Shown here piece after piece: positions 14,785-32,466 of a DNA stretch of 64,000 nt (positions within the stretch are counted from its first letter, which is position 1; every line of letters begins with the position of its first letter). This DNA is from Rubrivivax sp. (GTDB lineage: Bacteria > Pseudomonadota > Gammaproteobacteria > Burkholderiales > Burkholderiaceae_C), in NCBI GenBank assembly GCA_022843905.1, contig JALHMT010000006.1:62001-126000 (forward strand), given 5' to 3'. A model generated the notes under the pieces. That model was not told the origin of the DNA. It saw nothing but the letters and a program-made list of their open reading frames with translations, and made no database searches. A program made the translations under genes and the position numbers.

Positions 14785-14801
14785 GTATATTAAATGTGTG
14801 C
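14785..14801 (+). promoter_or_regulatory. GntR-type operator candidate, site A
   Basis: GTATATTAAATGTGTGC fits the shared motif GTAT-N6-TGT-NN-R-C found in the promoter gaps of this block. It lies in the 173-bp divergent gap between the EthD gene (14679) and the aminotransferase (14853), 51 bp before the latter. Binding by the GntR protein at 16326 is inferred from the repeated occurrence. Confidence 0.6.
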
Positions 14802-14852
14802 AAGTTGCAGGCGCCCTGACGTGTCGCGGCACGGCACGGACCGGAGAAACTC

Positions 14853-16265
14853 ATGACCGCCACCCTCGCGTTGCCCGCTGCCGCCGCCACGGCGCAGGCG
14901 TTGTGGGACGCCGATCGCCGCCACCACCTGCACCCCTGGCAGCACTTCGATTCCTTCAGGACCGAAGGCGCCCTGCTGATCGAAAGCGGCGAGGGCTGCC
15001 ACATCACCGACGTCCACGGCCGGCGCTACTTCGACGCCGTGGGCGGACTGTGGTGCACCAACATCGGCCTGGGCCGCCGCGAGATGGCAGACACCATCGC
15101 CGAGCAGGTGTCGCGCCTGGCCTACTCGAACCCGTTCGTCGACATGGGGAACCTGCGGGCTGCCGAACTGTCCAGGCGCCTGGCCGAACTGGCGCCCGGT
15201 GACATCGACCACGTGATGTTCACCTGCGGCGGGGGCACCGCCATCGACAGCGCCGTCCGCCTGGCGCACTTCTACCAGCGCTGCCGCGGCCTGCCGAAGA
15301 AGCGCCACTTCATCGCCCGCATGCAGGGCTTCCACGGCAGCACCTACATGTCCGCGTCGCTGACGGGCAAGGACCGCATCGCCGAGCACGAGTACCTCGA
15401 GGACAACGTGCACTTCGTCAGTTGCCCCAACCACTACCGGGCGCCCGAAGGCATGACCGAGGAGCAGTTCTGTGACTTCCTGGTGGCCGAACTGGAGGCG
15501 AAGATCCAGTCCATCGGGCCGGACCGGGTCAGCGCCTTCTTCGCCGAGCCGGTGATGGGCGCCGGAGGCGTGATCGTCCCGCCCCAGGGCTACAACCAGC
15601 GCACCCACGCCCTGTGCAGGAAGTACGACGTGCTCTATGTCGCCGACGAGGTGGTCACTGCCTTCGGCCGCCTGGGCCACTGGTTCGCTTCGCACGGCGA
15701 GTTCGGCATCGTGCCGGACATCATCACCTGCGCCAAGGGCCTGACGTCGGGCTACCTGCCGCTGGGGGCGTGCCTGTTCTCCGACGCCATCTACCGCGTC
15801 ATCAGCGAAGGGGACCCGGACCGCTTCTTCGGCCACGGCTACACCTACTCGGGCCACCCGGTGTGCTGCGCGGCCTCGCTGAAGGCCCTGGAGATCGTCG
15901 AGCGCGAGAACCTGATGGGCAATGTGCGTGATGTCGGCAGCTACTTCGAGCAGCGCCTGCACGAACTGGCGGACCTGCCGATCGTCGGCAACGTGCGCGG
16001 CCGCAAGCTGATGATGTGCGTGGAGTTCGTCGCCGACCGGCGCAGCAAGCAGACCCTGCCCGATGTGGTCAACATCGGCAAGATCGTCTCCAACCGCTGC
16101 GAGAAGCTGGGCCTGATCGTGCGCTCCATCGTGCACCTGAACATCATGTCGCCGGCCTTCGTGCTGACGCGCGACGATGTCGACTTCGTCGTCGACACGC
16201 TGCGCCAAGGCATCGTCGGCGCGATGGCCGACCTCGACGCCATGGGCGTGTCCTACCGCCGTTGA
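14853..16265 (+). CDS. Class III PLP-dependent aminotransferase (omega-aminotransferase type)
   Basis: A 470-residue fold-type I enzyme. The PLP lysine is K295 in PDIITCAKGLTSGYLP, the cofactor aspartate is D265 (LYVADEVVTAFGRLG), and MFTCGGGTAIDSAVR binds the phosphate. It resembles putrescine/beta-alanine/taurine-pyruvate aminotransferases, which move a terminal amino group to pyruvate. It starts the rightward transcript from the divergent promoter carrying operator site A and is followed 60 bp later by the GntR gene. In the block it probably removes an amino group from a degradation intermediate; the substrate cannot be read from the sequence. Confidence 0.92.
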   Translation: MTATLALPAAAATAQALWDADRRHHLHPWQHFDSFRTEGALLIESGEGCHITDVHGRRYFDAVGGLWCTNIGLGRREMADTIAEQVSRLAYSNPFVDMGNLRAAELSRRLAELAPGDIDHVMFTCGGGTAIDSAVRLAHFYQRCRGLPKKRHFIARMQGFHGSTYMSASLTGKDRIAEHEYLEDNVHFVSCPNHYRAPEGMTEEQFCDFLVAELEAKIQSIGPDRVSAFFAEPVMGAGGVIVPPQGYNQRTHALCRKYDVLYVADEVVTAFGRLGHWFASHGEFGIVPDIITCAKGLTSGYLPLGACLFSDAIYRVISEGDPDRFFGHGYTYSGHPVCCAASLKALEIVERENLMGNVRDVGSYFEQRLHELADLPIVGNVRGRKLMMCVEFVADRRSKQTLPDVVNIGKIVSNRCEKLGLIVRSIVHLNIMSPAFVLTRDDVDFVVDTLRQGIVGAMADLDAMGVSYRR

Positions 16266-16325
16266 CGACCGCCAGCCGTTGTGGACAGCACGTCTACACT
16301 GGCGGCTGGACGAGCAGGAGACGGC

Positions 16326-17090
16326 ATGGCAACGAGCAAGACGGCGGCAGGCGGCGCCGCCAAGGCAAGGAAGACCGCGGCGGAGAGTGTCGCGCCCTCG
16401 CGTGCGCGTGGCACGGGTGCGTCCGCGGTGTACGACGCCCTGCGCTCCGACATCCTGAACCTGAAGATCGCGCCCGGCACGCTGCTCGACGAAAGCGACC
16501 TGAGCCGGCGCTTCGCGCTGTCGCGCTCGCCGGTGCGCGAGGCCCTGATCCGCCTCTCCGCCGAAGGCCTGATCCAGACGCTGCCCAACCGCAGCCCGGT
16601 GGTCACGCCCTTCGACATCGCCCAGGTCCCCGGTTTCCTCGACGCCCTGGAGCTGATGTACCGCGCGACCTGCCGCCTGGCGGCGATGTACCGCACCGAT
16701 GCGGAACTCAAGGCCATCGCCGCCAAGGCCAGGCAACTGGAGCGCGGCTACAAGGACACGGCGCTGGCCGACCAGATGCGCGAGAACCGCGAGTTCCATC
16801 TGCTGATCGCCGAGGCGGGCGGCAACCCGATTTACGCGGCCTGGCTCGGCCAGCTGCTCGACCAGGGCCAGCGCCTGTTCCGCCTGAGCGCCTTCTTCGA
16901 AGGCGACAAGGCGGTCAAGTCCGATTTCTCGGAGCACACCGCCATCGTGTCCGCCATCGAGAAACAGGACCTCGCGGCTGCCGAACTGGCCGCTGCACGC
17001 GACCTGGACATCCTGCGCAACCGACTCTTGCGCGAGTTCGGCTCGCGGCCCACGGGTGGCATGCGGCTGGAGGGCAGCCGCTCGCGCTGA
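16326..17090 (+). CDS. GntR-family regulator with FCD effector domain
   Basis: A 254-residue protein with a low-complexity basic N-terminus (about 1-30), a winged HTH (SAVYDALRSDILNLKIAPGT, then FALSRSPVREALIRLSAEGL) and a C-terminal all-helical FCD domain (residues about 100-235) with the metal/ligand histidine pattern EFHLLI and EHTAIV. FCD regulators are usually repressors relieved by a pathway metabolite. AGGAG precedes ATG 16326. Its position inside the catabolic block, and five 17-nt sites of one motif in the block's promoter gaps, make it the best candidate for their regulator. Confidence 0.93.
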   Translation: MATSKTAAGGAAKARKTAAESVAPSRARGTGASAVYDALRSDILNLKIAPGTLLDESDLSRRFALSRSPVREALIRLSAEGLIQTLPNRSPVVTPFDIAQVPGFLDALELMYRATCRLAAMYRTDAELKAIAAKARQLERGYKDTALADQMRENREFHLLIAEAGGNPIYAAWLGQLLDQGQRLFRLSAFFEGDKAVKSDFSEHTAIVSAIEKQDLAAAELAAARDLDILRNRLLREFGSRPTGGMRLEGSRSR

Positions 17091-17114: not shown

Positions 17115-18299
17115 TCAGTCGTCCAGCGCCTGGTAGATCAAGGGATCGAACAGCCAGCTGGGCGCGTCCGACGCGTCGAACCCGTCGAGCACGCTCATCG
17201 ACCCGACGACGACCAGATCGCGAGGCGGGTCGATCCAGCCCCAGTTGCCACCCGCGCCGGCGGTGAACAGCGTCCCGGCGGATGCGCAGGAACCCAGGCG
17301 CACCGGGTCGGTCGTCAGGGTGAACCAGCCCGGCGTGCTGGCCACCCCGGGCTGGTCGAGGTCCAGGGCCTTGCCGGTCATCAGCGCCACCGTGGCCGGT
17401 GCGAGGACCCGTTGGCCGTCGATGCGGCCGCCACCGGCGATCATCCGCAGGAAGCGCCACTCGTCGTCCAGCGTGCCCAGCACGCCGCCGCCGCCGGAGA
17501 TCAGGGGCGGTGCCGGACTGACCGGCCAGGCGAAGGCCCGGACGCCGGTGTCGGGGACCGGCTCGCAGGCGCCGTCCGGCCCTTGGCGATGCACGGGAGC
17601 GAAGTGCGGCAGCTGTGAAGGGGCGAGGCTGAAGGCGGCGGTCTTCATGCCGCAGGGCTCGAACAGGCGCTCGCGCATCAGCACGTCCAGTGGCTTGCCG
17701 CCGAGGCGCTCGGCGATCAGCCCCTGGAGGTCGTGCGCGATGCTGTAGTGGAAGCCCGCACCCGGCTCCTGCACCAGCGGCAGCGCGGCGGCGCGTTCGA
17801 GCAGGGTCCGCGCCGTCTGCGTGAAGTCCAGCACCTGCGCCTGCGCGTAGAGGCGGTCGACGTCGTGCCTCTCGTCCAGGCCGTAGGCGAAGCCGGCGGT
17901 GTGGGTCAGCAGGTCGAACATGGTGATCGGCCGCTGCGGCGGCTGCCCGGTGCCGAAGACCTTCAGCCCCGCCAGTTCGGGCAGGAAGCGGGTGAGGGGG
18001 TCGCTGAACAACCACCGCCCTTCCTCGAAGAAGGTGAACAGCACGGCGCTGGTCATGGGCTTGGTGGCCGAATAGAAGCGCATCAACGTGGACGCGTCGA
18101 ACGGCGGGCCGTCGCCGACCCGGTGGCTCCCCGCCGCCCAGTCGAGCACGGTGCCGCGCCGCGCCACGCGCAGCGCGATGCCGGGCAGCCGCCGCTGCTC
18201 GACCAGCCGCTGCAGGGCCGTCTCGATGCGCCGGGCTCGCTCGGGCACCAGGCCGGCCGAGCGAAGGGCGGCCGCGTCGGGGGAGCGTGCCGGAGGCAT
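17115..18299 (-). CDS. Serine hydrolase of the beta-lactamase class C / EstB family
   Basis: A 394-residue protein with the SxxK nucleophile motif S77-ATK80 (RFYSATKPMTSAV) and the second-motif tyrosine Y185 in HYSIAHDLQG. The usual YxN third residue is Ile187, which favours esterase or peptidase over beta-lactamase activity. No signal peptide is visible, so it is likely cytoplasmic. Family members hydrolyse esters, amides or D-peptides, and MlrB of microcystin degradation is a related fold. It is divergent from the FAD oxidoreductase with operator site B between them, and convergent with the GntR gene (24-bp gap). Confidence 0.88.
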   Translation of the reverse strand: MPPARSPDAAALRSAGLVPERARRIETALQRLVEQRRLPGIALRVARRGTVLDWAAGSHRVGDGPPFDASTLMRFYSATKPMTSAVLFTFFEEGRWLFSDPLTRFLPELAGLKVFGTGQPPQRPITMFDLLTHTAGFAYGLDERHDVDRLYAQAQVLDFTQTARTLLERAAALPLVQEPGAGFHYSIAHDLQGLIAERLGGKPLDVLMRERLFEPCGMKTAAFSLAPSQLPHFAPVHRQGPDGACEPVPDTGVRAFAWPVSPAPPLISGGGGVLGTLDDEWRFLRMIAGGGRIDGQRVLAPATVALMTGKALDLDQPGVASTPGWFTLTTDPVRLGSCASAGTLFTAGAGGNWGWIDPPRDLVVVGSMSVLDGFDASDAPSWLFDPLIYQALDD

Positions 18300-18353: not shown

Positions 18354-18370
18354 GTGTACAAATAGAATAC
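18354..18370 (-). promoter_or_regulatory. GntR-type operator candidate, site B
   Basis: The minus strand reads GTATTCTATTTGTACAC, matching GTAT-N6-TGT-NN-R-C. The site lies between the serine hydrolase start (18299, leftward) and the FAD oxidoreductase ATG (18441), about 55 and 70 bp from each, so it could control both. The plus strand contains TTGTGTACAA, a near-perfect palindrome. Confidence 0.6.
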
Positions 18371-18440
18371 TATAACCATGCGACCACGCGGTGCCTCACG
18401 GCGGACAGAGTGGACGCCTTGCCGACTACCGGACTCTTCT

Positions 18441-19814
18441 ATGGACCGCACCTCTGCCGCTGGCCGCGACCCGAGTTCCGCGCTGGACCTGCGCCCTCGC
18501 GGCCGCCTGGCGTGCGACGTGCTCGTGGTCGGCGGTGGTGCGGCGGGTCTGGCGGCGGCCTGCACAGCCGCCAGTCAAGGGCTGGACGTGCTGCTGCTCG
18601 AGCGCTACGGCTTCTGCGGTGGCGCCGCGGTGGCGGGCTTCTCCGGCACCGTCTGCGGGCTGTACCTGGCGCGCCGGGGCGCCGCCGGCGCCCCCGAGCA
18701 GGTGGTGCACGGCTTCGTCGACCGCTTCATCGCCGCGATGCAGCGCCACCAGGGCCTCACCGAGCCCGTGCGCTACGGCGAGACCTACACGAGGGTGCAC
18801 GAACCCTTCGCCTGGCGCGTGGCCGCCGACGACCTGCTGGCGCAGGCCGGCGTCAGGGTGCTTTACCACGCGCAGGTCATCGCCGCGCTGGTCGAAGGCG
18901 GCGAGCGCATCGAGGGTGCGCTGGTCCACACCAAGCAGGGCCGCTTCGAGGTGCGCGCGCGGCTGACGATCGATGCCAGCGGCGATGCCGATGTCTTCGC
19001 GATGGCCGGACTGCCGACCACGGTGGGCGACGGCGGCAAGGTGCAGAACCCGACGATGATCTTCCGCATCGGCGGGGTGGACGTGGCGCGTTTCCTCGAC
19101 ACCTACGGTCCCGATTCGATCCTGCCGCCGTCGGTGTCAACGGCGCTCGCGAGCGCGAACGACAGCGGCGACTACTGGCTGCCCCGGCACAAGATCTTCC
19201 TGTTCCCGACGCCGCGTGCCGGCGAGTTGCTGTGCAACTGCACGCGCATCGTCGAGCCCGAGGGGACGGAACTGCACCCGCTGGTGGCGGCGGAGCTGTC
19301 GCGTGCCGAGATACTGGGGCGCCGCCAGGCGCGCGACTATGCCCGCTTCTTCCGCGACCGTCTGGCGGGGTGCGAGCAGTCGTTCCTGCTCGACACCGGC
19401 GTGCAGGTCGGCGTGCGCCAGTCGCGCCAGATCGTCGGCCTGCAGACGCTGTCCAACGACGACGTCGTCCGCGGCACCAAGCGGGCCGATGCGATCGCGC
19501 GTTCGCCCTGGCCCATCGAACTGCACAGCGGCAACAAACCCCGCCTGTCGTGGCTCTACGACGACTGCTACGACATCCCGCTGGGGTGCTTCGTGCCGCT
19601 GCGTGGCGACGGCCTGCTCGCGGCCGGTCGCTGCCTGTCGGCCGAGCACGAGGCCATGGCGTCGGCGCGCGTCACGGCGCAGTGCTTTTCCTACGGCCAC
19701 GCCATCGGCCACGCGGCCGCGATCGCGGTGCGCGACCGGCTCAGCGTGCGCGAGGTCGACGTCGCGGCCGTGCGTCGGCGGCTGGCGGCCGACGGAGCCG
19801 TGCTGACCTCCTGA
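18441..19814 (+). CDS. FAD-dependent oxidoreductase (FAD_oxidored family)
   Basis: A 457-residue flavoprotein with an N-terminal dinucleotide motif GGGAAG (31-36, in CDVLVVGGGAAGLAAACTAA), TIDASGDADVFAMAGLPTTV, and the C-terminal LGCFVPLRGDGLLAAGRCLS / EHEAMASARV pattern of the FAD_oxidored group (PF12831), whose members are diverse dehydrogenases. ATG 18441 is chosen over ATG 18378 because 18378 lies directly next to operator site B and would leave almost no leader; neither has a strong Shine-Dalgarno. It is followed by the TonB receptor after 147 bp. Confidence 0.85.
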   Translation: MDRTSAAGRDPSSALDLRPRGRLACDVLVVGGGAAGLAAACTAASQGLDVLLLERYGFCGGAAVAGFSGTVCGLYLARRGAAGAPEQVVHGFVDRFIAAMQRHQGLTEPVRYGETYTRVHEPFAWRVAADDLLAQAGVRVLYHAQVIAALVEGGERIEGALVHTKQGRFEVRARLTIDASGDADVFAMAGLPTTVGDGGKVQNPTMIFRIGGVDVARFLDTYGPDSILPPSVSTALASANDSGDYWLPRHKIFLFPTPRAGELLCNCTRIVEPEGTELHPLVAAELSRAEILGRRQARDYARFFRDRLAGCEQSFLLDTGVQVGVRQSRQIVGLQTLSNDDVVRGTKRADAIARSPWPIELHSGNKPRLSWLYDDCYDIPLGCFVPLRGDGLLAAGRCLSAEHEAMASARVTAQCFSYGHAIGHAAAIAVRDRLSVREVDVAAVRRRLAADGAVLTS

Positions 19815-19871: not shown

Positions 19872-19911
19872 GTATGTAATGTGTAGACTCACGTGCGTAT
19901 CATTTGTACAC
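19872..19911 (+). promoter_or_regulatory. GntR-type operator candidates, site C (two copies)
   Basis: GTATGTAATGTGTAGAC (19872-19888) fits the 17-nt motif GTAT-N6-TGT-NN-R-C. A second copy with a 4-nt spacer, GTATCATTTGTACAC (19897-19911), follows 8 bp later and shares ATTTGTACAC with site B. Both lie 50-90 bp upstream of the TonB receptor ATG at 19962. Confidence 0.55.
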
Positions 19912-19961: not shown

Positions 19962-22241
19962 ATGACACCCAACCGCACCCGCACCCGCCGCCGCCCGATG
20001 CATCCGCCGGGCCTCACGCCTCTGTCCCGCCAGCTGGCGCTGTGGCTGGCCGGCGCCGGCCTGACCGTCGGCAGCACGGGTGCGCTGGCGCAGCCGGCGC
20101 CGGCAGCCGGCGCCGGCGCATCGCAGAGCGTCGTGATCTCGACGTCGATCCGCAAGAAGCTCGAGACCACGCAGGAAATCCCCGCCACGGTCAACGTGCT
20201 GTCGGGTGTGGAACTGCAGGCCCAGGGCGTCTACGACGTCAAGGGCATCGAGTACAAGATTCCCGGGCTGGTGCTCGGCAACCTGGGCTTCGACGGTGCG
20301 TCGATGGGCCTGCGCGGCGCGTCGAGCACGCGGGGCTTCACGGGTGACGAGGCCACGGTGGCCGTGCACCTCGACGGCATCTACATCCCGCAGTCCGGCG
20401 CCGCGCTGGGCCGCCTGTTCGACGTCGCGCGCATCGACACCTTGTACGGGCCCCAGGGCACGCTCTATGGACGCAATGCGGTGTCGGGCGTCATCGACAT
20501 CGTCTCCAATGCCCCGGGCCCGGTCTTCGGCGGCACGGCGTCGGTCACCCTCGGCGCGTTCGGCGGCCGCGGGCTGGACGGCACCCTGAACGTGCCGATG
20601 TCGCAGGACAGTGGGCTGCGCCTGGCGATCTCGACCTTCAAGGACGACGGCTACGTCAGCAACGTCGTCGCTTCCAGCCCGGTGCGCAGCGTGGGCACCG
20701 ACGAGTTCGCGGCGGGGCGCGTGCGCTACGTCCGCAACTTCGGCGCCGACAGCCGCCTGGACGTGAGCTTCCAGGCCAGCCAGGACGGCTCCATCGCCCC
20801 GTTCCAGCCGCGCTACCTGGACAGCGCAGCCAGCCGCACGGCCGGCGTCAGATGGCGCCAGACAGCGATCGACCAGGAAGTCGACTACGACCGCAAGGAC
20901 AGCAACCTGGCGATCAAGTTCGACACCGTCGTCGCGGGTCTGCGCCTGCGCTCGATCACCGGCTACACCACCTACGACGTGGCGCAGAAGAACGATCGCG
21001 AGCTGAGCATCACGCCGTCGCCTGCAGGCCAGCTGGTGCTGGCCCAGGACAGCAAGGCGGTGTCGCAGGAGCTGGCCCTGTCGTCGCTGAACCCCGGCGC
21101 GGTCGACTGGCGGGTGGGCCTGTACTACACGAAGACCGAGGCCAACGAGAGCCGCCAGGGCGAGAGCATCACCTCGGTCTTTGTCGGTCAGCGCGACTAC
21201 GACGACTTCCGCCTGACGCAGGACGGCGAGGCCAAGGCGGTCTACGCGTCGATCGACTGGAAGCCGGTCCAGCCGCTGACGGCCACGGTCGGCCTTCGCT
21301 ACAACGACGAAAGCAAGGAGGCGACCCAGAACCACGCCTACGGCAACGCGCTGCCCGTCGGCGCCATTCCCGACTGCACCGGGGCGCCAGGGGTTCCGCT
21401 GTGCCGCTCGATCCAGTCGGCCGATTTCAAGTGGACCGGCACGTCCGGCGACGTGTCGCTGAAGTGGCAGATCAACAAGGCCTCGATGACCTACCTGCGC
21501 GCAGCACGAGGATTCCGCTCGGGTGCCGTGGGGGGTTACGTCGGGCAGGACAACTACTTCGACCAGCTCTTCGGCGGGCCCGGCACCTTCGGCCTCGTCA
21601 AGCTGAAGCCCGAAGTCCTCGACTCGCTCGAGTGGGGCCTGAAGAACACCCTGATGCGCAACCAGCTGGCGCTGAACGTCGCGGTCTACAGCAACGATTA
21701 CAAGGACCAGCTGTTCGCCTATGCCGACCCGGTGACCTTCCGCTTCGTCGACGGCAACATCGGCAGCAGCAGGATCAGCGGCGTGGATGTCAACGCGGCG
21801 TTTTCGCCCACCGGCAGCGGGCTGCGCATCGATGCCTCCGTGGCCTACGCCACCGGCGAGATCAAGGAGCTCCTGCAGCCCGGCACCGGGCTGGCCGTGG
21901 GCAACAAGCCCATCCTCATGCCCAGGCTCAGCGCGTCGCTGGGCGTGTCGCAGCGCTTCGCGTTGTGGGGCGGCGCGCTGTCCGTGGGTGCCGACTACAA
22001 CCACAAGGGCGAGATGTTCCAGGACCTGCAGAACACCATCCTGCGGCCCGCCGTCGACCTCTTCAACGTCAACGTCTCCTGGGCGCCACCGGGCGGCGGC
22101 TGGCGCATGTTCGCTGCCGTCAACAACCTGCTCGACAAGGAGTACCTGTCGCGCCCCGCCAATGCCCTGGGTGCCGCCCCGACGCCGGTGTTCGTGGCCG
22201 AGCCCCGCAAGTGGCGCGTCGGCGCCGCGATCAACTTCTGA
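19962..22241 (+). CDS. TonB-dependent outer-membrane receptor
   Basis: A 759-residue receptor with a basic N-terminus, hydrophobic signal (LALWLAGAGLTVGSTGALAQ), plug domain (about 50-170; SVVISTSIRKKLETTQEIPA, VHLDGIYIPQSG, LYGPQGTLYGRNAVSGVIDI) and a C-terminal beta-barrel ending in aromatic KWRVGAAINF, as needed for BAM insertion. It is of the organic-substrate type rather than a clear siderophore receptor. GGAGAC precedes ATG 19962. It is preceded by two operator-like sites and sits in the catabolic block, so I infer that it imports the block's substrate across the outer membrane. Confidence 0.93.
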   Translation: MTPNRTRTRRRPMHPPGLTPLSRQLALWLAGAGLTVGSTGALAQPAPAAGAGASQSVVISTSIRKKLETTQEIPATVNVLSGVELQAQGVYDVKGIEYKIPGLVLGNLGFDGASMGLRGASSTRGFTGDEATVAVHLDGIYIPQSGAALGRLFDVARIDTLYGPQGTLYGRNAVSGVIDIVSNAPGPVFGGTASVTLGAFGGRGLDGTLNVPMSQDSGLRLAISTFKDDGYVSNVVASSPVRSVGTDEFAAGRVRYVRNFGADSRLDVSFQASQDGSIAPFQPRYLDSAASRTAGVRWRQTAIDQEVDYDRKDSNLAIKFDTVVAGLRLRSITGYTTYDVAQKNDRELSITPSPAGQLVLAQDSKAVSQELALSSLNPGAVDWRVGLYYTKTEANESRQGESITSVFVGQRDYDDFRLTQDGEAKAVYASIDWKPVQPLTATVGLRYNDESKEATQNHAYGNALPVGAIPDCTGAPGVPLCRSIQSADFKWTGTSGDVSLKWQINKASMTYLRAARGFRSGAVGGYVGQDNYFDQLFGGPGTFGLVKLKPEVLDSLEWGLKNTLMRNQLALNVAVYSNDYKDQLFAYADPVTFRFVDGNIGSSRISGVDVNAAFSPTGSGLRIDASVAYATGEIKELLQPGTGLAVGNKPILMPRLSASLGVSQRFALWGGALSVGADYNHKGEMFQDLQNTILRPAVDLFNVNVSWAPPGGGWRMFAAVNNLLDKEYLSRPANALGAAPTPVFVAEPRKWRVGAAINF

Positions 22242-22265: not shown

Positions 22266-22730
22266 TCAGCGGCGTACGCCGATCTGCTCGAACGCGAGCA
22301 GCCACGAGGGGCCCGGGCCCCTCGTGTCACGTCGATAGACGTCGGCGATGAAGGTCGACACCGTGCGCGTCGCGGTGCCGTCGTGCACCGTGAAGATGGC
22401 GTCGAAGGTGACCACCGCGGTGTCGCCCCATCCGCAGGCCTGCAGGCGCTCGACGCTGAAGGTTCCGGTGCCGCCGGCGGCTGCCGACAGCGCGTCGATG
22501 AAGCCGGCCCGCGTGACGCGCTCGCCGTTGCCCAGCACCTGCTGGAAGTCGGGGGCCACCTTGCTCTCGAGCACGGCGCGGTCGCCGCGCCGGATCGCGG
22601 TGTCGAGCGCCGCCGCGGCTTGCCGCACCTGTGCTTCGGCCTCGGCCGGTAGCGCGGGGCAGGCGAGCGCCTGCAGCGGCGCCCAGGCCAGCAGGGTCGA
22701 GGCGATCAGGCGGGCGGCTCGTTTCGTCAT
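22266..22730 (-). CDS. Exported DUF4440/SnoaL-like (NTF2-fold) protein
   Basis: A 154-residue protein with a Sec signal (MTKRAARLIASTLLAWAPLQ, cleavage near ALACPA), followed by an NTF2-like pattern: AAAALDTAIRRGDRAVLESK, VAPDFQQVLGNGERVTRAGF, VVTFDAIFTVHDGTATRTVS. This fold is used by small enzymes and binding proteins; no catalytic residues can be assigned. Its ATG overlaps the stop of the upstream DMT transporter gene by four bases (ATGA at 22730-22727). It is the last gene of the six-gene leftward operon that begins at the MFS transporter. Confidence 0.75.
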   Translation of the reverse strand: MTKRAARLIASTLLAWAPLQALACPALPAEAEAQVRQAAAALDTAIRRGDRAVLESKVAPDFQQVLGNGERVTRAGFIDALSAAAGGTGTFSVERLQACGWGDTAVVTFDAIFTVHDGTATRTVSTFIADVYRRDTRGPGPSWLLAFEQIGVRR

Positions 22731-23704
22731 CGTGATCGCCCGATCGTCAGGGTGGCGGTCGAGGCTTCCTGACCTGACGGTGGGGTGCCACGGCCCAGCG
22801 CGGCGAGTGCGCTGCCGGCCACGGCGAGCAGCGCCCCGCCGACGGTCAGCGCCCCGACGTCGGGCACCGACACGCCGATCACGCCCATCGCAGCGGCCCC
22901 CAGCGACATCAGCCACACCAGCACCGGCGACAGCGACGTCACCGTGGTGGCCCCGGACACCGTCCAGTGCCGCATGGCCTGGGCGAAGGCTCCGTAGGCC
23001 ACCAGCGTGCACAGGCAGGCCACCGCCAGCGCCAGCCATCCGCCTGCGCCCAGCCTGTCGAAGCCCTGCAGCGAGCTGAAGGGCAGCAGCACCAGCGCCG
23101 CGCCGCCGCACACCAGCCACAGGACCTGCAGCGTGTTCAGCCGGCGTTGCACCACACGCTGCACCAGCGCGTAGGCGAGCCACGCGAAGGCCGCCAGCAT
23201 CACGAGCAGCGCGCCCAGCGCGAAGCGGCGGTCGAAGGCCGAGGCGCTCAGGCGGGGCAACAGGAACAGGCCCTGGCCGACGAGAAAGGTCACGAGGCCG
23301 GCGGCCTGCAGCCGGCTCAGGCGCTCACCGAGGAAGAGCAGGCCGCAGCCCATCAGCAGCATGCCGTTCATCGACGACAGCACGCTCGACTCGGCCGGCG
23401 TCACGTGGCTCAGCGACTGCATCGACAGCACGTAGTTGGCGGCCAGGCCCGCGGCCGCCAGCAGCAGCAGCCCGCGGTCGCAGCGGCCGATGTCGGCGGG
23501 CTTCGGCAACTGCCCGCGGCGTGACAGCCACGCGCCGAGCAGCAGCGTGGTCACGGCCAGACGCACGCAGGCCACCGTCGGTGGCGTGAGGGTGTCCACC
23601 AGTCGCGCCATGACGATCATCGTGAGGGCCCAGACGACGGCGGCCAGCAGGGCCCATGCCGGTCCGGGCCCCGCGCTGGCGCGCCGGTGGATCAGTCCAG
23701 GCAC
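22727..23704 (-). CDS. DMT-superfamily (EamA) transporter
   Basis: A 325-residue inner-membrane protein with about ten hydrophobic helices in two EamA repeats (first from AWALLAAVVWALTMIVMARL, second from ALGALLVMLAAFAWLAYALV). EamA proteins move small metabolites, commonly as exporters. I chose GTG 23704 because it overlaps the end of the upstream CocE gene (stop at 23692) by 13 bp and leaves a short tail before helix 1; the open frame further upstream is the shadow of CocE. Its stop overlaps the next gene as ATGA. It is part of the leftward operon of the catabolic block. Confidence 0.85.
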   Translation of the reverse strand: MPGLIHRRASAGPGPAWALLAAVVWALTMIVMARLVDTLTPPTVACVRLAVTTLLLGAWLSRRGQLPKPADIGRCDRGLLLLAAAGLAANYVLSMQSLSHVTPAESSVLSSMNGMLLMGCGLLFLGERLSRLQAAGLVTFLVGQGLFLLPRLSASAFDRRFALGALLVMLAAFAWLAYALVQRVVQRRLNTLQVLWLVCGGAALVLLPFSSLQGFDRLGAGGWLALAVACLCTLVAYGAFAQAMRHWTVSGATTVTSLSPVLVWLMSLGAAAMGVIGVSVPDVGALTVGGALLAVAGSALAALGRGTPPSGQEASTATLTIGRSR

Positions 23705-25395
23705 GGCAGCACGAGGTGCGAAGGGTGAAGGGTCTGGTGCAGCACCTGCTGGCCCGCGATGCGGGGCGGCGAGGCATCGTCGGCGATCGGGTCGCCGGTG
23801 TTGGGGTTGGGCGCCATGCGCGGGTAGGCGCTGCTGGTCACGCTCAGGCGCAGCCGGTGCCCGGGCATGAGCGTGTGGCCGATGCCCCCCAGGCGCAGCC
23901 TGAGCACGGCAGGCTGCCCTGGCTGCAGCAGCACGGCCTGCTGGAAGCCGAGCCGCCACCGCGCCTGCAGCTGGCCGCACTCCCGCGAACCGAGGCGCCG
24001 AGCACGGCCGTCGGGCGCCAGGTCTTCCAGGCGGCAGACGAAGTCGGTGTCGGGCGCGTCGGACACGATGTGCAGCACCAGGGTGACGTCGCCGACGATG
24101 TCCAGCGGCGCCGTGCCCGCTTCGCTGCAGTAGACCAGCACGTCGGGTCGGTCGATCAGCGGCGCCATGTCGACCATGTGGTGCGGCAGGCCGGGGGCAG
24201 CGCCGGGCAGGTCCGACAAGGTGTTGAAGGCGGGCTGGGTGGGGGCGTAGCGGTAGCTGTCGGGCGGCTCGTCGCCAGGTGCGTCCCAGCCCAGGCGGCC
24301 GTCGCCGTGCAGGCCGCTGGCCTGTCCGCCGCTGTGCAGGTAGAGCGGCCTTTGCACGGCCCCTGCGGGCGGCCAGCGGTCGGCATGGATCCAGCGGTCG
24401 CTGCCGGTCAGGTACAGCTGGACGGGGGCGTGGTCGAACTCCCCCTCGCCCTTCAGGTACCGGTCGTAGAACTGCCGCGTGATGGCCAGGCCGGGCAGGA
24501 AGGCCTGCGGTGGCAACAGCGCGTCGCCGACGCGGTCGACGGGCTTGCCGTCGAGGTAGCCGTAGCCGCCTTCGGAGCACGTGGCGTGCTCCCAGGGCCC
24601 GACGATCAGGTGCACGGGCCGGCGGCTGGCCGCGCGCATGTGCCGGTCGTGCTCCAGCGTGCCGCGCAGCGTGCCGTCGAACCAACCGCTGAAGGCCAGC
24701 ACCGGCACGTCCATGCCTGCGTAGTCCGTGGGGCTGAAGGATGCTCCCGCCCAGTAGGTCGCGTCGTCCGGCGGATGGTCCAGCAGCTCCTGGTAGAGGG
24801 CCGAGGTCTGCCGCAGCACGGCTGTGTCGGCGCTGCGCAGCGGCCGGTGGTGCACGCCGACTGCCCAGTCCGGCGGTGCGGTCAGGGCGAGCTGATTTCC
24901 GGCCAGTGCGGCCGGCCAGGTCAGCGCCCAGTTGAAGTGGAAGATGCCGCCGTCGTAGGCCACGTCGTCGACGCCCGTGCCGCTGGCATTGGGCACGATG
25001 GCGCGCAGGCTGGGCGGCCGCTGCCGCGCCACCTGCCATTGATTGCTGCCCGAGTACGACGCGCCGCGCAGGCCGACGCGGCCGTTGCACCAGGGCTGTG
25101 CCGCGATCCACTCGACCACGTCGTAGCCGTCGTCGCCATCGCCGCCGGTGGCCAGCGTGAACGCGAAGCGGCCGCCGGAGTCGCCCGTGCCGCGGCACTC
25201 GACGATGACGAGCACGTAGCCGTGCCGGACCCAGTACGCGCCTTCGTTGCCGAAGTTCTGCCGGCCAGGCCCGCGGCCGTAGGGCGTGAGCTCGACGATC
25301 GCGGGACCGGCCGGCCCGTCCGCGGCCAGGAAGGCGTCGGCCGCCAGTTCGACGCCGTCTCGCAGGGGAATGCGCAGCCCGCTCAGCGTCTTCAT
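23692..25395 (-). CDS. CocE/NonD-type serine hydrolase (X-Pro dipeptidyl-peptidase S15 family)
   Basis: A 567-residue hydrolase: alpha/beta domain with nucleophile S113 in GASYSG, acid D240 in FSGWFDG and base H270 in GPWEHA, followed by the C-terminal beta-sandwich (about 350-567; VTLVLHIVSDAPDTDFVCRL, LRLSVTSSAYPRMAPNPNTG) typical of CocE. Members cleave esters or amides such as cocaine, cephalosporin esters or proline peptides. There is no signal peptide. ATG 25395 is preferred; the longer frame overlaps the amidohydrolase gene. It starts 16 bp after the amidohydrolase stop, within the leftward operon. Confidence 0.92.
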   Translation of the reverse strand: MKTLSGLRIPLRDGVELAADAFLAADGPAGPAIVELTPYGRGPGRQNFGNEGAYWVRHGYVLVIVECRGTGDSGGRFAFTLATGGDGDDGYDVVEWIAAQPWCNGRVGLRGASYSGSNQWQVARQRPPSLRAIVPNASGTGVDDVAYDGGIFHFNWALTWPAALAGNQLALTAPPDWAVGVHHRPLRSADTAVLRQTSALYQELLDHPPDDATYWAGASFSPTDYAGMDVPVLAFSGWFDGTLRGTLEHDRHMRAASRRPVHLIVGPWEHATCSEGGYGYLDGKPVDRVGDALLPPQAFLPGLAITRQFYDRYLKGEGEFDHAPVQLYLTGSDRWIHADRWPPAGAVQRPLYLHSGGQASGLHGDGRLGWDAPGDEPPDSYRYAPTQPAFNTLSDLPGAAPGLPHHMVDMAPLIDRPDVLVYCSEAGTAPLDIVGDVTLVLHIVSDAPDTDFVCRLEDLAPDGRARRLGSRECGQLQARWRLGFQQAVLLQPGQPAVLRLRLGGIGHTLMPGHRLRLSVTSSAYPRMAPNPNTGDPIADDASPPRIAGQQVLHQTLHPSHLVLPCLD

Positions 25396-25411
25396 CGGCC
25401 GACCCTCGCGT

Positions 25412-27190
25412 TCAGGCGCTGCGGCGCCAGGCACCGCGGTTGCCCGCCCCGCGCCCGGCGCGTGCCGCCAGGGCGTTCGGATCGAGCGTGGCGGCGCGGC
25501 ACGCCGGGCAGTCGCTGCGCGCCATGCGCATGGGCGATGCGGCGCGCGCGCGGCCGGCCGCGGCGGCAGCCGCCGCCGTGGTGTGGTGCACCACACGGCC
25601 GCCGACGATGGTCATCAGCACCTGGGCCTCGGCCAGCCGCCGCGACGGGTCGTCGAAGATGTCGTCGCTCAGCACCGCCATGTCGGCCAGCAGACCCGGA
25701 GCGAGGCGGCCCTTGCGCTGGTCCTCGAAGGCCGCGTAGGCGGCGTCGACCGTGAAGTGCCGGAGCGCTGCCTCGGCGCCGATGCGCTGCTCGGGCACCC
25801 AGGGCTCGGCGGCTTCGTGCCCGCGGAGCTGGCGCGCGACGGCGCTGTGCATGGAGCGCAGCACGTCCATCGACGACACGGGGTAGTCGCTGGAGAAGCA
25901 CTGGCGCACGCCGGCCTCGTCGATCGCGCGGTAGGGCTGCGCGCGCGCCGTGCGCTCGGGGCCGAGCAGCGGGCTGTAGTTGTGAAGCACGGTGTCGTCG
26001 GGGTAGGCGAAGTTGGGCTGGGTGCTGGCGACGACGCCGGCGCGGGCGCAGCGCAGCAGGTCTTGCGGCGAGGGGACGTCGAGGTGCTCGATGCGGTGGC
26101 GGCGGGCCCCTGCTGGGCGCGCGCCGTTCACGCGCGCGGCGTGCTCGAAGGCGCCGAGGGCCTGGCCGGTGGCGCCGTCGCCGGTGGCGTGCAGCATCAC
26201 CTGCCAGCCGTGGCGGTCCATCAGCGCCACGGTCTGGTCGAGCTGCCGGTCGTCCCAGTACGGCGACCCGCGGCTGCCGTCGCTGAGCGCTTCGCGCATG
26301 TAGGCGGTGCGGGCGTCGATGGTGCCGTCCAGCCAGGCCTTCAGGCCGTTGAAGCGGAAGCGTGTGTCGTGCAGCGTGCTGCGGTGCCGCTCGTCGAGCA
26401 GCGCCAGCCGGGCGGCGTCGGGGTCGGGCAGCAGGCGGTGCGCCTGCTGCACGCGCAGGCTGAGTGCTTCTTCGCGGCGCGCGCGCTGCAGGCACAGCAG
26501 GTCGTCGCCCATCGCCTCGTCGAGGTTGTGCACGCTGGTGATGCCGAAGCCATGGGCCTCGGCCTGGATCTCGCGCAGCAGGCGGTCCAGCCGGGCGGGC
26601 GTGGGGGGCGGCAGCCGTGCCCGCAGCGCCTCGATCGGCACCATGCCGCGCAGTTCGCCGGTGAGCAGGCCTTCGTCGTCGAGCACGGCGCAGCGGCTGG
26701 CGGCATCGTCGCGGCCGGCGCTGATGTCCAGGGCCTGCAGCGCCAGCGTGTTGAGCAGGATCATGTGGCCGTCGCGGCCGGTCAGCCAGACCGGCCGGTC
26801 GGCGACCACCGCGTCGAGGCAGTGGCGGTGGGGAACGTGGCCGGGAAAGTCGGTGTAGGCCCAGCCGCTGTCGACGATCCAGCCGCCCTGCGGGTCGCCG
26901 TCGGCCAGCGCCTTCAGGCGGCGCTGCAGTTCGGCCAGCGAATCGGCCATGAAGAAGGTGGCCCGCGAGCCGGGCAGGAAGTGCCAATGGGCGTCGATGA
27001 AGCCCGGCACGACGCGCCGGCCTTCGAGGTCGACGGTCGGGACGCCGGGCGCGGCCAGTGCCCGGATCTGCGCCGTGCTGCCGACGGCGACGATGGTCTC
27101 GCCGTGCACCGCCAGCGCTTCGGCCTCGGGCAGCGCCGGGTCGCCGGTCCACAAGCGGCCGTTGAGGTAGAGGCAGTCGATCGGCGTCAT
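25412..27190 (-). CDS. YtcJ-type amidohydrolase (amidohydrolase 3 family)
   Basis: A 592-residue metal-dependent hydrolase. N-terminal strand domain (MTPIDCLYLNGRLWTGDP), the HxH metal motif H68-W-H70 in GFIDAHWH, then the long insert typical of YtcJ proteins (VWLTGRDGHMILLNTLALQA), RIEHLDV and FSSDYPV for the later metal/catalytic residues, and GLLADMAVLSDD closing the composite domain. YtcJ members hydrolyse amides or formyl groups; substrates are largely unknown. The C-terminal ~45 residues are alanine/arginine-rich and unusual. It lies between the GH13 and CocE genes in the same operon. Confidence 0.9.
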   Translation of the reverse strand: MTPIDCLYLNGRLWTGDPALPEAEALAVHGETIVAVGSTAQIRALAAPGVPTVDLEGRRVVPGFIDAHWHFLPGSRATFFMADSLAELQRRLKALADGDPQGGWIVDSGWAYTDFPGHVPHRHCLDAVVADRPVWLTGRDGHMILLNTLALQALDISAGRDDAASRCAVLDDEGLLTGELRGMVPIEALRARLPPPTPARLDRLLREIQAEAHGFGITSVHNLDEAMGDDLLCLQRARREEALSLRVQQAHRLLPDPDAARLALLDERHRSTLHDTRFRFNGLKAWLDGTIDARTAYMREALSDGSRGSPYWDDRQLDQTVALMDRHGWQVMLHATGDGATGQALGAFEHAARVNGARPAGARRHRIEHLDVPSPQDLLRCARAGVVASTQPNFAYPDDTVLHNYSPLLGPERTARAQPYRAIDEAGVRQCFSSDYPVSSMDVLRSMHSAVARQLRGHEAAEPWVPEQRIGAEAALRHFTVDAAYAAFEDQRKGRLAPGLLADMAVLSDDIFDDPSRRLAEAQVLMTIVGGRVVHHTTAAAAAAAGRARAASPMRMARSDCPACRAATLDPNALAARAGRGAGNRGAWRRSA

Positions 27191-27308
27191 GGGGTGTCTC
27201 CTTCGCGGAAGGCAGGCGGTTCCGGTGGCGGTGTCATCGTGGCGCAGGCGCCGGCCGTGAGCACGGTGCATGCAGCACGCAGGCCCGCGACCCTGGCACC
27301 GACGGTCG

Positions 27309-28927
<1,619 letters not shown>

Positions 28928-28931
<4 letters not shown>

Positions 28932-30184
28932 CGGGTCACCAGCGGGGTGGGGGCGCCTGCGCCGGCGGTCGCGACGTGCCGCGCGTTCAGCCGCAGGGCC
29001 AGCCAGACGGCCAGCGGGCACAGCACGATGCCCGCCCCTGCCAGCCAGGCCACCGCGGGCAGGCCCCACCAGGCGGTGGCGGCGGTGGTCATGGCCGTGA
29101 GGCCGACGTTCAGGGCCATGCGGATGGGCTGCGTGGCCACGGTCAGGCGGCCCAGGGGGTCGATCTTCATGAACAGCGCCAGCAGGAAGGGATAGACGAA
29201 GCTCCACACCAGGCTGAACACGCCCATCGCGGCCCAGTAGCCTGGCAAGCCGAACTGTGGCAGCAGCAGCAGCGTGGCCGACGCGAGCCCGAACACGGCG
29301 CCGACCACGACCGGCCAGAACAGGCCCATGCGCTCGCCCAGCCAGGCCACGAACAGCGAAGCCGGCAAGCCCAGGGCGGTGGTCACCGCCAGCACGAGAC
29401 CGATGGTCTCGGGTTCGATGCCGCGTGCGTTGCCGAAGCGCTCCGAGTAGGCGAAGAAGTCGGTGGTGTAGAAGTTGAATGCGAACCAGGCGAGCACCGC
29501 CGGGATGGCCGGGATCCAGGGGATCGGCGGCGGCTTGGCGGGGGCGCCTGCCGGCAGGGCCTCGGAGCCCGTCGGGGCCATCACCGGCGCCTTGCGGGGC
29601 ATGCGCAGCGCCAGCAGCGCGATGACACCCGCGGTGGCGGCCAGCGTCGTCTGCACGCCGATGAAGCCGAAGGTCTTGGACAGCACCGGCAGGGTGAACA
29701 GCGCCAGCGACTGCATGAGGGTCTGCAGCGTGGTGTACCAGGCGTAGGCCTTGGTGGGCGATGCCGCGTACCCCAGGAACACGAGGCCCAGGATGGACAC
29801 GACCCCCATGCCCGTGCTGTGCACTGCGCGCACGGCCAGGAAGGCCGGCAGCGAGGTGGTGAAGTAGGTGGCGATCTCCGCGCCGAGCATCAGCAGCCCC
29901 GCCGCCACCATCACCACGCGCCGGTCCAGCCGGTGCAGCAGCACGGCCAGCATGGTGCCGACGACGAAGCCGCAGGCGGCGTTGACGGTCTGCATCGTGC
30001 CCAGGGCCACGATGTCGTAGCCCCGCTCCCTGACCACCGCCCCCCACCAGACCGGGCCGGTCAGCCCCGGGATGGCGGCGAACAGCAGCAGGACCTGCAC
30101 CGAGAGCAGGTAGCCCATGCCGCCGATGGGCTTCACCCGGTCGCCGCCGGGGTCGGGCAAGGGGGCGTGCGGCGAATGGCTCAA
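28928..30184 (-). CDS. Major facilitator superfamily transporter
   Basis: A 418-residue, 12-helix MFS permease (helices from MGYLLSVQVLLLFAAIPGLT through VAWLAGAGIVLCPLAVWLAL), with a short cytoplasmic loop around residue 205-235. It is most like sugar/drug-type MFS proteins; direction of transport is unknown. I selected TTG 30184 because AGGAAGG lies 6 nt upstream; ATG 30247 is an alternative with no Shine-Dalgarno. It is the first gene of the leftward operon MFS, GH13, amidohydrolase, CocE, DMT, NTF2-like, transcribed from a gap holding operator site D. Confidence 0.85.
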
Positions 30185-30250
30185 GAGGCGCCTTCCTGGA
30201 GGGCAGACCGCGCGCACACCGGGCCGCCGACCTGCTGTCGACGACATTGC

Positions 30251-30267
30251 GCATACAAACAGTATAC
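30251..30267 (-). promoter_or_regulatory. GntR-type operator candidate, site D
   Basis: The minus strand reads GTATACTGTTTGTATGC, matching GTAT-N6-TGT-NN-R-C. It is about 67 bp upstream of the MFS start at 30184 and after the stop of the Bug gene at 30338, marking a promoter for the six-gene leftward operon. Confidence 0.6.
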
Positions 30268-30337
30268 GAAAGCGCGGTGATCTCGCCACCGCCAGGCGCG
30301 CGTCGCCGTCCCTGCCAGCCGCTCGCGCATGACCCGG

Positions 30338-31303
30338 CTACTGCTCGACCGTCGCGCCCGATTGGCGCACCATCGCGCCGAAGCGCTCGATCTCCGACTT
30401 CAGGAACTTCGAGAAGGCCTCGGGCGTGCTGCCGACCGGTTGTGCGCCTTGCGCCTCCAGCGAACTGCGCACGTCGGGCAGCGCCAGCGCAGCCGCCAGC
30501 TCGCGCTGCAGCAGCCGCACGATGGCGTCGGGCGTCCCGGCCGGCGCATAGGCGCCGAACCACTGCGTCACCTCCATGCCGGCCACGCCTTGTTCGGCAG
30601 TGGTGGGGATCTCGGGTGCGCTGGACATGCGCTGCGAGCTGGTGACGGCCAGCGCACGCAGCCGGCCGTCCTTGACGAAAGGCGCCACCACCGGCGCGCC
30701 GAGGAAGGCCGCGTCGACCTGACCGCCGATCAGGTCGACCACCAGCCGCTCCTTGTAGGGCACATGCAGCATCTGGATGCCGGCCACGCTTTGCAGTCGG
30801 GCAGCGATCAGGTGCTGCAAGGTGCCGTTGCCGGGCGAGGCGTAGGTCAGCCCGCCGGGTTTGGACCGGGCCAGCTCGATGAACTCGCCGAGCGACCGGG
30901 CGGGCACCTTGGGGTGGACCACCAGCACCATCGGCAACTGCACCAGCTGCGTGATCGGTGCGAAGTCGCGTTCGGCGTTGTAGCGCATGTTCTTGTAGAG
31001 ATGCTGATTGATGGCGACGTCGTTGGACGCCGACATCAGCAGCGTGTACCCGTCGGGCCTGGCCTTGGCCACGGCGTCGGCGCCCAGCATGCCGGCCGCA
31101 CCCATCTTGTTCTCGACGATGAACTGCTGGCCGAGCCGCTCGCCGAGCTTGGTGGCCAGCAGGCGCGCCACGGGGTCGACACCGCCGCCCGGCGCGTAGG
31201 GGTTGACGATGGTGACGGTGCGTGTCGGATAGGTCTGGGCGGCGAGTGGCAGGCTGATCAGCGCGGCCAGCAGCAGGGCGGCGACCTGTGCAAAGGGCGA
31301 CAT
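30338..31303 (-). CDS. Bug/TctC-family periplasmic solute receptor
   Basis: A 321-residue receptor with a Sec signal (MSPFAQVAALLLAALISLPL, ending near AAQTYP) and Bug hallmarks: VTIVNPYAPGGGVDPVARLL, IVENKMGAAGMLGADAVAK, VPYKERLVVDLIGGQVDAAF. ATG 31303 begins 14 bp after the enolase-superfamily gene stop, so both are in one transcript from the divergent promoter with operator site E. It is the periplasmic receptor of the catabolic block, presumably for a carboxylate released or used by the neighbouring enzymes. Confidence 0.93.
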   Translation of the reverse strand: MSPFAQVAALLLAALISLPLAAQTYPTRTVTIVNPYAPGGGVDPVARLLATKLGERLGQQFIVENKMGAAGMLGADAVAKARPDGYTLLMSASNDVAINQHLYKNMRYNAERDFAPITQLVQLPMVLVVHPKVPARSLGEFIELARSKPGGLTYASPGNGTLQHLIAARLQSVAGIQMLHVPYKERLVVDLIGGQVDAAFLGAPVVAPFVKDGRLRALAVTSSQRMSSAPEIPTTAEQGVAGMEVTQWFGAYAPAGTPDAIVRLLQRELAAALALPDVRSSLEAQGAQPVGSTPEAFSKFLKSEIERFGAMVRQSGATVEQ

Positions 31304-31317
31304 GGTGACGTGATCCT

Positions 31318-32418
31318 TCACGGGGTGGGAAGCAGGTGGTTGTCCAGGCCCAGACCCGGACCGGCCGGCAGTTCGACGCAGCCGTCGACGAGCGCGAAGC
31401 GCCCCTGCGCCAGCTCGTCGAACAGCATGCGGTGCAGCATGTGGAACTCCACCGAGTCGAGGTTGGGCGTGGCCGCTGCCAGCTGCAGGTTGGCCGCGAA
31501 GCACACCACCGACGATGCGGCGTGGAACGACACCGTGACGTGGCGCGAGGCGGCCAGAGCCGCGATGCGCTGGCCTTCGCTGATGCCGCCGCACAGGATG
31601 GCGTCGAGGTGCGCCACGGCCACCGCGTTCGACTCGACGAGGCGGGTGAAGGTCTCCAGCCCGTAAGCGAATTCGTTGCCGGCCAGCGGCACGGGGCTCG
31701 CCGCGGCCACGCGGGCAAGGCCGGGGATGTCGTCGGGCGCGACAGGCGCTTCGAGGAAGCCGATGTCGAACGCTTCCAGCGCCCGCGCCATGCGCATCGC
31801 CTCGGGCACGGACAGCGCGTACAGCGCGTCGACCAGCACGCGGACGTCCGGCCCGACGGCGGCGCGCACCGCGGCCACGCGGGCGATGTCCACCGCGAAG
31901 GGCGCGCCGGCGATCTTCAGCTTGACGCCCCTGAACCCGAGGTCGACGTAGCCCTTCATCTCGGCGGCGAGGTCGTCGATGGTCTTGCCCGGCCCGTACA
32001 GCCCGGCACTGGCGTAGGCCGGTACGCGGCGGCGCTGCGCGCCCAGCAGCGTGGCGACGGGCTGGCCCAGCGCCTGGCCCAGGGCGTCCCACAGGGCGAT
32101 GTCGATGGCGCTCAACGCCGCCCAGGCCGCGCCGCCCTTGGCGCTGACGACCAGGGTCTCGCGCAGCGACGACGACAGCGCGCCCAGGTCGAGCAGGCTG
32201 CGGCCGACGACGAGCGGCGCGAAGTCGCGCTCGACCAGCGCCTGCACCGAGTCGGGCGCCCCGCCGTCGCAGTAGGCCTCGCCCAGGCCCACCAGACCGC
32301 CGGCCGCGCGCAGCAGCACCAGCACCACCACCTTCTCGTTCCAGCGGGTGCGCGGGTTCCACTGCGCCTTGGCGAAGGCCTTGCGAACCACGCGCGTCTC
32401 GATGGCTTCGATCTTCAT
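31318..32418 (-). CDS. Enolase-superfamily enzyme, mandelate racemase subgroup
   Basis: A 366-residue enzyme with the capping domain (1-120) and TIM barrel. Catalytic residues typical of the mandelate racemase subgroup are present: K166-L-K168, metal ligands D197 (VLVDAL), E223 (GFLEAPV) and E249 (AGNEFAYG), and the D272-H299 dyad (AHLDAILCGG, SFHAAS). Such enzymes abstract the alpha-proton of a carboxylate to racemise or dehydrate it, often a sugar acid. It is divergent from the M81 peptidase gene across a 111-bp gap with operator site E and is followed by a Bug receptor. Confidence 0.92.
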   Translation of the reverse strand: MKIEAIETRVVRKAFAKAQWNPRTRWNEKVVVLVLLRAAGGLVGLGEAYCDGGAPDSVQALVERDFAPLVVGRSLLDLGALSSSLRETLVVSAKGGAAWAALSAIDIALWDALGQALGQPVATLLGAQRRRVPAYASAGLYGPGKTIDDLAAEMKGYVDLGFRGVKLKIAGAPFAVDIARVAAVRAAVGPDVRVLVDALYALSVPEAMRMARALEAFDIGFLEAPVAPDDIPGLARVAAASPVPLAGNEFAYGLETFTRLVESNAVAVAHLDAILCGGISEGQRIAALAASRHVTVSFHAASSVVCFAANLQLAAATPNLDSVEFHMLHRMLFDELAQGRFALVDGCVELPAGPGLGLDNHLLPTP

Positions 32419-32449
32419 GGGTGGGCACTCGCCGGGCGATGGGCAATCA

Positions 32450-32466
32450 GTATACTTAATGTCGAC
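32450..32466 (+). promoter_or_regulatory. GntR-type operator candidate, site E
   Basis: GTATACTTAATGTCGAC matches GTAT-N6-TGT-NN-R-C. It sits in the divergent gap between the enolase-superfamily gene (32418, leftward) and the M81 peptidase gene (32530), 31 and 63 bp from the two starts. TATACT within it could also serve as a -10 box, which would place the operator over the promoter. Confidence 0.6.

Follow-up and report, generated by a model that had tools for sequence, protein, structure and literature searches.

The window analysed here, i.e., the whole 64-kb stretch of contig JALHMT010000006.1 from Rubrivivax sp., contains a block of 16 genes, one of which encodes a GntR/FCD transcriptional regulator (16326-17090). 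Sites of a common 17-nt form, GTAT-N6-TGTNNRC, are located in the gaps of this block. Judging from the sequence, it is very likely that a HypR-like, autoregulated and probably repressing regulator binds paired operators before eight putative transcription units and thereby controls the 16 genes as one regulon. The genes are arranged as follows (family matches in brackets):

14332-14679, minus strand: EthD-domain protein gene (Pfam EthD, 6e-9); relative in the Paucibacter block described below 89% identical
14853-16265, plus strand: class III aminotransferase gene (Pfam Aminotran_3, 2e-80; NCBIfam PRK07036, above the cut-off)
16326-17090, plus strand: GntR/FCD regulator gene (Pfam GntR, 2e-15; FCD, 2e-16)
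17115-18299, minus strand: gene for a beta-lactamase-family, esterase-like hydrolase (Pfam Beta-lactamase, 2e-49)
18441-19814, plus strand: FAD oxidoreductase gene (Pfam FAD_oxidored, 2e-114); start set by comparison with Paucibacter, with a longer frame from 18378
19962-22241, plus strand: TonB-dependent receptor gene (Pfam barrel, 3e-37; Plug, 4e-11)
22266-30184, minus strand: putative six-gene operon of MFS, GH13, Amidohydro_3, S15/CocE-type hydrolase, EamA and DUF4440 genes (Pfam)
30338-32418, minus strand: TctC receptor and enolase-superfamily genes (Pfam TctC, 7e-72; MR_MLE_C, 3e-61)
32530-35774, plus strand: MlrC-like M81 gene and FAD_binding_2 dehydrogenase gene (Pfam DUF1485/MlrC_C; FAD_binding_2)

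The MFS operon is proposed because its six genes lie on the same strand and are closely spaced. The eight putative units would thus be EthD; aminotransferase-GntR; beta-lactamase-family; FAD oxidoreductase; TonB receptor; the six-gene MFS operon; enolase-TctC; and MlrC-FAD.

An earlier reading of this DNA from its letters and open reading frames (the sequence-only reading) had listed five 17-nt sites, a shorter-spaced sixth at 19897-19911, and gene starts 50-75 bp away (31 bp for the enolase-superfamily gene). All five 17-mers are exact and are the sole matches in the 64 kb, the sixth site is present, and the recomputed distances are 50-73 and 31 bp. The site at 14707-14723, which has a Paucibacter counterpart, is absent from that list. 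The sites are:

14707-14723, strand unassigned: further candidate site GTCGACGTATTGTATGC, 27 bp upstream of EthD, in the general two-box form
14785-14801, plus strand: site before aminotransferase-GntR; exact match, aligns with Paucibacter 33445-33461
18354-18370, minus strand: site in the divergent promoter of the beta-lactamase-family and FAD oxidoreductase genes; exact, aligns with Paucibacter 27689-27705
19872-19888, plus strand: site before the TonB receptor gene, weakest of the five; exact, without alignment to a Paucibacter 17-mer
19897-19911, plus strand: 15-nt two-box site before the TonB receptor gene, 9-bp spacing; aligns with Paucibacter GTATCTTTTGTATAC, 13/15 bases equal
30251-30267, minus strand: site before the MFS operon; exact, 16/17 identical to Paucibacter 3690-3706
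32450-32466, plus strand: site in the divergent promoter of the enolase-superfamily and MlrC-like genes; exact, identical 17-mer at Paucibacter 1272-1288

The distances from site to start are approx. 51 bp for the aminotransferase gene, 54 bp for the beta-lactamase-family gene, 63 bp for the MlrC-like gene and 31 bp for the enolase-superfamily gene; the TonB receptor start lies approx. 73 and 50 bp from its two sites, and the MFS start approx. 66 bp from its site, provided that it is the TTG at 30184.

The five matches in the window compare with a mean of 0.13 in 100 shuffles, none of which contained five. The genome-wide scan, which the sequence-only reading had named as a possible refutation, was favourable: in the 7.43-Mb genome there are 10 matches, five in this 17.7 kb and five elsewhere (six for the backwards-pattern control). 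Of the outside matches, four are internal to long open frames whose GC is coding-like, and the fifth is at a frame edge. This location is only suggestive, because sites 18354 and 30251, tested likewise, also fall within open frames extending upstream of start codons.

Recurrence of the sites in a related block

Independent tests were sought because the motif had been chosen by eye. In DNA of 70% GC, AT-rich words are conspicuous, and a motif selected after reading the sequence might be a chance pattern from AT-rich gaps. With the regulator as query, an 80% identical copy was detected in a metagenome-assembled genome (MAG) labelled Paucibacter toxinivorans, and a second MAG has a copy that is 76% identical (73% over the whole alignment). 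The Paucibacter contig (50.8 kb) holds the block inverted, with relatives of all 16 genes. The motif has 21 matches in this genome vs. 6 for the backwards control, and the five on the block contig are distributed one to each of the five corresponding promoters; the recurrence in promoters of an orthologous block, which had been proposed as a check, was therefore found at every one. Gap alignments bring together three of the five 17-mers (aminotransferase, beta-lactamase-family and enolase/MlrC). In the TonB-receptor gap the 15-mers align and the 17-mers lie at different places, and the MFS gap is unaligned owing to additional small genes that Paucibacter carries between the site and its MFS gene; its site at 3690-3706 precedes the gene run leading to that gene. 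The candidate site at 14707-14723 has a counterpart, GTCGACCAATTGTATGC, near the Paucibacter EthD gene.

Cross-matrix tests gave a similar picture. Of the five window sites, four outscore all 40 shuffles when the matrix is built from the five sites of Paucibacter. In the opposite direction, a matrix from the five window sites has seven places on the Paucibacter contig above all 40 shuffles, two of them outside the five promoters (36752, near FAD_binding_2, and 8609, approx. 440 bp upstream of the amidohydrolase gene). A ten-site matrix places five positions in G300:C21 above all 60 shuffles, although one of them, 18776, may be coding DNA. Recovery by the matrix of another genome, genome-wide rarity and the spacing test described below, which used promoters that had no part in defining the motif, all speak against a chance pattern; given same-promoter recurrence in Paucibacter and cross-matrix recovery, this explanation is considered refuted and its probability next to nil. 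Elsewhere in the window, the near-palindrome GGTCTATCCTATATGTATAGCCT at 668-690 scores 14.8 with the Paucibacter matrix (0.075 expected) and is probably a chance match. The Paucibacter block also contains a short broken beta-lactamase-family match (L060, G299:C17, 7925-8193) just upstream of the intact copy, resembling a partial duplicate.

Paired boxes and the regulator family

When aligned, the sites show a GTATAC-like box and a GTNNRC box whose centres are separated by 11 bp, and the motif letters, picked by eye, describe these boxes only in part. The best reading of the unit is a pair of GT-N2-RC-like boxes at this spacing, i.e., the two-base form of the FadR/FCD operator: a survey of the FadR subfamily (PMC4494728) gives GT..AC as its core and places HypR in the two-base group. 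The boxes are GTNNRC-like throughout, with exact GTNNAC in several sites and a deviating first box at 19872. In a strict GTNNAC count, 18354, 30251 and 32450 each have one perfect and one near-perfect box, 14785 has 3/4 core bases in both boxes, and box 1 of 19872 has only 2/4. The general two-box form has 36 matches in the window, three of them AT-rich, and it was this form that yielded 14707-14723.

Box pairs spaced at 11 bp number 25 in the window, and six of them fall in the five gaps of the block (731 bp), vs. 5 of 317 pairs at twelve other spacings; one box had to be perfect and the other to have at least 3/4 core bases (14785 and 19872 are too imperfect to count). Two of the six, 18410 and 30226, are GC-rich and are not among the named sites. 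These pairs occupy 18410-18426 (GTGGACGCCTTGCCGAC) and 30226-30242 (GCCGACCTGCTGTCGAC), the second near site 30251.

The spacing was also examined upstream of relatives of the regulator. Plasmid records with such a relative number 378, all below 60% identity and mostly from Rhizobium and Sinorhizobium; the alphaproteobacterial ones are approx. 45% identical over approx. 75% of the window regulator. Upstream of nine plasmid relatives of the 15 listed (five Rhizobiaceae, four Rhodobacterales), 14 of 16 perfect boxes have a partner (at least 3/4 core bases) at 11 bp, vs. at most 6 of 16 at the other spacings from 6 to 18; the effective number is smaller, because a perfect pair is counted twice and the Sinorhizobium records are close kin. 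In a betaproteobacterial set of 21 gaps, partly chosen for holding sites, 24 of 39 boxes are partnered at 11 bp (next best 5 of 39). These counts tie the paired box, as far as sequence comparison goes, to the regulator family without using the window, and the box could provide an easy criterion by which targets of HypR-like regulators might be found in alpha- and betaproteobacteria. Among the listed titles and abstracts of the open-licence PMC literature on GntR/FCD, half-site and tandem FadR operators, no 11-bp paired box was found, and RegPrecise may hold the design.

The 16326 protein, which the sequence-only reading had already assigned to the GntR/FCD family, has a GntR winged helix (56.7 bits, Pfam cut-off 27) and an FCD domain (61.1 bits, cut-off 24.3). 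The plasmid relatives have the same 11-bp paired boxes before the regulator gene, and the S. meliloti relative lies beside proline racemase, aldehyde dehydrogenase, FAD oxidoreductase, DHDPS-family and amino-acid ABC genes; its name, HypR, rests on these neighbours, which fit the hydroxyproline set. Among the Pfam matches of the 16 block genes there is no proline racemase, DHDPS or aldehyde dehydrogenase, and the regulator is therefore termed HypR-like rather than HypR. It also differs in that the window boxes are mostly GTATAC-like instead of GTCGAC, and in that a third metal-type His column has Asp. Asn154, His158 and His204 are the same in all nine regulators of an alignment, in which a further column has His in three relatives and Asp in the other six, including the window regulator. 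The invariant residues resemble, by pattern only, the Asn-His-His-His zinc site described for Atu1419 (PMC7797058), and a changed ligand or metal is possible. The six Asp-column regulators are linked to blocks with MlrC-, EthD- or FAD_binding_2-like genes.

Other family members offer further comparisons. Weak sequence relatives of the window regulator are NanR (4e-7) and the structure 6z74 (2e-9), which we take to be Atu1419. NanR, according to PMC8012715, places several dimers on repeated GGTATA, aided by an N-terminal extension; the window regulator likewise has approx. 30 residues before its winged helix, but NanR dimers are offset by approx. half a turn, whereas the window boxes are a full turn apart. 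Atu1419 is reported as an FCD repressor on ATGTATACAT (PMC7797058), and it acts as a tetramer on single 10-mers 109-190 bp apart, in contrast to paired boxes in the window. A weaker extra box 7-12 nt from the palindromic core is described for 13 FadR-subfamily groups by Suvorova and others 2015 (PMC4494728); compared with such half-sites, the second box in the window is nearly as strong, and 11 bp is fixed across the alpha- and betaproteobacterial relatives.

In the model that follows, the sites would be operators of the FCD-type regulator encoded at 16326-17090. Each box might be read as a core palindrome by one dimer, with two dimers or a tetramer per full operator; since 11 bp is approx. 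one helical turn, two dimers could sit side by side on one DNA face. Autoregulation is likely, given that site 14785 is followed first by the aminotransferase gene and then by that of the regulator. PMC5343134 reports HypR autoregulation in 32 of 46 genomes, some HypR regulons with a TonB receptor or ornithine cyclodeaminase, and S. meliloti HypR as a negative regulator with hydroxyproline as inducer; S. coelicolor HypR represses its own gene, as stated in PMC6608401. By analogy, repression would be lifted when a substrate or intermediate binds the FCD domain. With sites before all eight putative units, 16 genes (not 17, as counted in the sequence-only reading) would form one autoregulated regulon.

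A different view of the same sites is that they are TATACT-like -10 boxes of co-expressed genes rather than operators. Several do contain TATACT, oriented to a gene starting 51-73 bp downstream, but a consensus scan for sigma-70-like promoters supplied no partner hexamer (0 promoters found, 0.6 expected from the shuffles), conservation extends to the second box, and the GTCGAC boxes of relatives contain no -10. This view is thus highly improbable, and a -10/-35 arrangement was dropped when the scan gave no promoter.

Distribution of the block and specificity of the regulator

The block has a patchy distribution. A regulator relative occurs in 6 of 81 genus genomes (E <= 1e-25), 2 of 299 family genomes (1e-30) and 3 of 399 order genomes (1e-38), the Rubrivivax genome itself included each time. 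A narrowed pattern has four matches in this genome, all in the block, and five in the other 80 genus genomes (11 in all 81 for its backwards control). In L108 this pattern precedes the regulator gene, and in L113 it lies between the Ldh-family gene and the aldehyde dehydrogenase gene. In genomes G331 and G336, with regulators 43% identical, the top matrix matches (60 shuffles, 0.02 and 0 expected) have GCATGC and GTCGAC boxes and lie between a DadA-like gene and the TonB receptor gene. In G369 and G354 the top matches lie upstream of the regulator (0.05 and 0.02 expected). The G331 block contains relatives of EthD (49%), FAD_binding_2 (47%), MlrC (53%) and, distantly, the TonB receptor (28%), as well as an MFS_2 gene and an enolase-like gene.

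It might be proposed that the sites are bound by a regulator encoded elsewhere that has an FCD-type motif, the local GntR gene being in the block by coincidence. FCD regulators with similar cores are common, 48 first-look candidates occur in the Rubrivivax genome (only one passing E 1e-30), and G300 has a strong site on another contig (L064), approx. 4 kb from a regulator that is only 31% identical. However, block, regulator and sites travel together in Paucibacter, the 11-bp paired box precedes the gene of the window regulator's own alphaproteobacterial relatives, and the strict motif is almost absent from the genus genomes, most of which lack the regulator. A distant regulator is accordingly unlikely, and the link between the 16326 protein and the sites appears strong from the sequences compared. 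The L064 site (G300:C41, 8963-8998) is a very strong match, GTATACTACATGTATAC, followed by more GTATAC boxes, and is probably the operator of another regulator; the 31% identical protein encoded nearby is a GntR/FCD paralogue.

Several observations weigh against binding of these sites by the 16326 protein, or narrow it. The narrowed pattern was fitted to the sites already known and does not recover 19872. When up to three mismatches are allowed, the consensus GTATACTNNNTGTRYAC has 179 matches in the Rubrivivax genome vs. 208 for the backwards control; because it is no commoner than its control, no regulon members are claimed outside the block. In G331 and G336, with 0.9 and 0.2 expected, the matches directly preceding the regulator gene lack significance on their own. 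In G246, G530 and G480 (regulators 38-41% identical in the genome searches, where G246 stands at 45%), matrix matches are no better than shuffles; G530 and G480 are the two further order-wide relatives at E <= 1e-38, with best matches at 0.9 and 0.4 expected. The nine relatives in the spacing test amount to two families' worth of lineages, some with recent shared ancestry. Repression is not supported by anatomy, because the promoter scan found no sigma-70-like promoter. Site 14707 is weak by matrix (its Paucibacter copy at 0.6 expected) and rests on conservation, and 19872 is weak by the Paucibacter-built matrix (0.05 expected). The possibility that 19872 is a false site was considered and dropped, and it is kept as a weak site because the adjacent 15-mer is conserved. 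The single regulon of the sequence-only reading is nonetheless well supported, because the genome scan, the Paucibacter promoters and the paired boxes of relatives agree; that its genes also form a single pathway, as was likewise claimed, may be surmised from the enzymes they encode.

Putative substrate of the regulon

The enzyme set suggests that a compound of amide, ester or peptide type is taken up and degraded. The closest solved relatives of the beta-lactamase-family gene product are beta-lactamase-domain proteins and esterases. A comparison of the M81 protein with solved MlrC (7ylq) gives a match along its full length (E 1e-79), and its 297 bits fall far below the NCBIfam MlrC cut-off of 999; the M81 family is widespread in proteobacteria. 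Among the Pfam matches of the block, none points to MlrA, although no search was aimed at MlrA, MlrB or MlrD, nor at a comparison of the beta-lactamase-family gene with MlrB. In the MAG labelled P. toxinivorans, the regulon includes two MlrC-like genes, of which one is interrupted by the end of the contig, as well as two S15-type hydrolases and DadA-like and arginase-family genes. Strain 2C20 of P. toxinivorans is described as opening microcystins, with mlr genes reported absent (PMC8068134). From these observations one could imagine that bacteria lacking an mlr cluster use the regulon as a hitherto undescribed route for D-amino-acid peptides, cyanobacterial or similar, but this is a doubtful proposal. 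A literature search for MlrC together with GntR surfaced only a haloarchaeon study, and one for M81, TonB and regulon had nothing on this regulon among the matches listed.

The kind of switch is known, and this gene set appears to be new. A search for the substrate needs a testable unit of this kind, in which 16 genes of otherwise unconnected families are tied together; a compound that releases the 16326 protein from its operator would likely be that substrate or a product of it. Further genes accompany the block in some genomes. Two sulfatase genes and an arginase-family gene (L059, 16766-20000; L060, 9588-10538) occur in the Paucibacter block and not in that of the window, and G331 has one sulfatase gene too. 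A DadA-like gene (11582-12880; NCBIfam D-amino acid dehydrogenase, above the cut-off) lies approx. 1.5 kb outside the block in the window and carries no site; a DadA-like gene is also found inside the block in Paucibacter and beside MlrC in G336, and in G331 it matches in three broken pieces.

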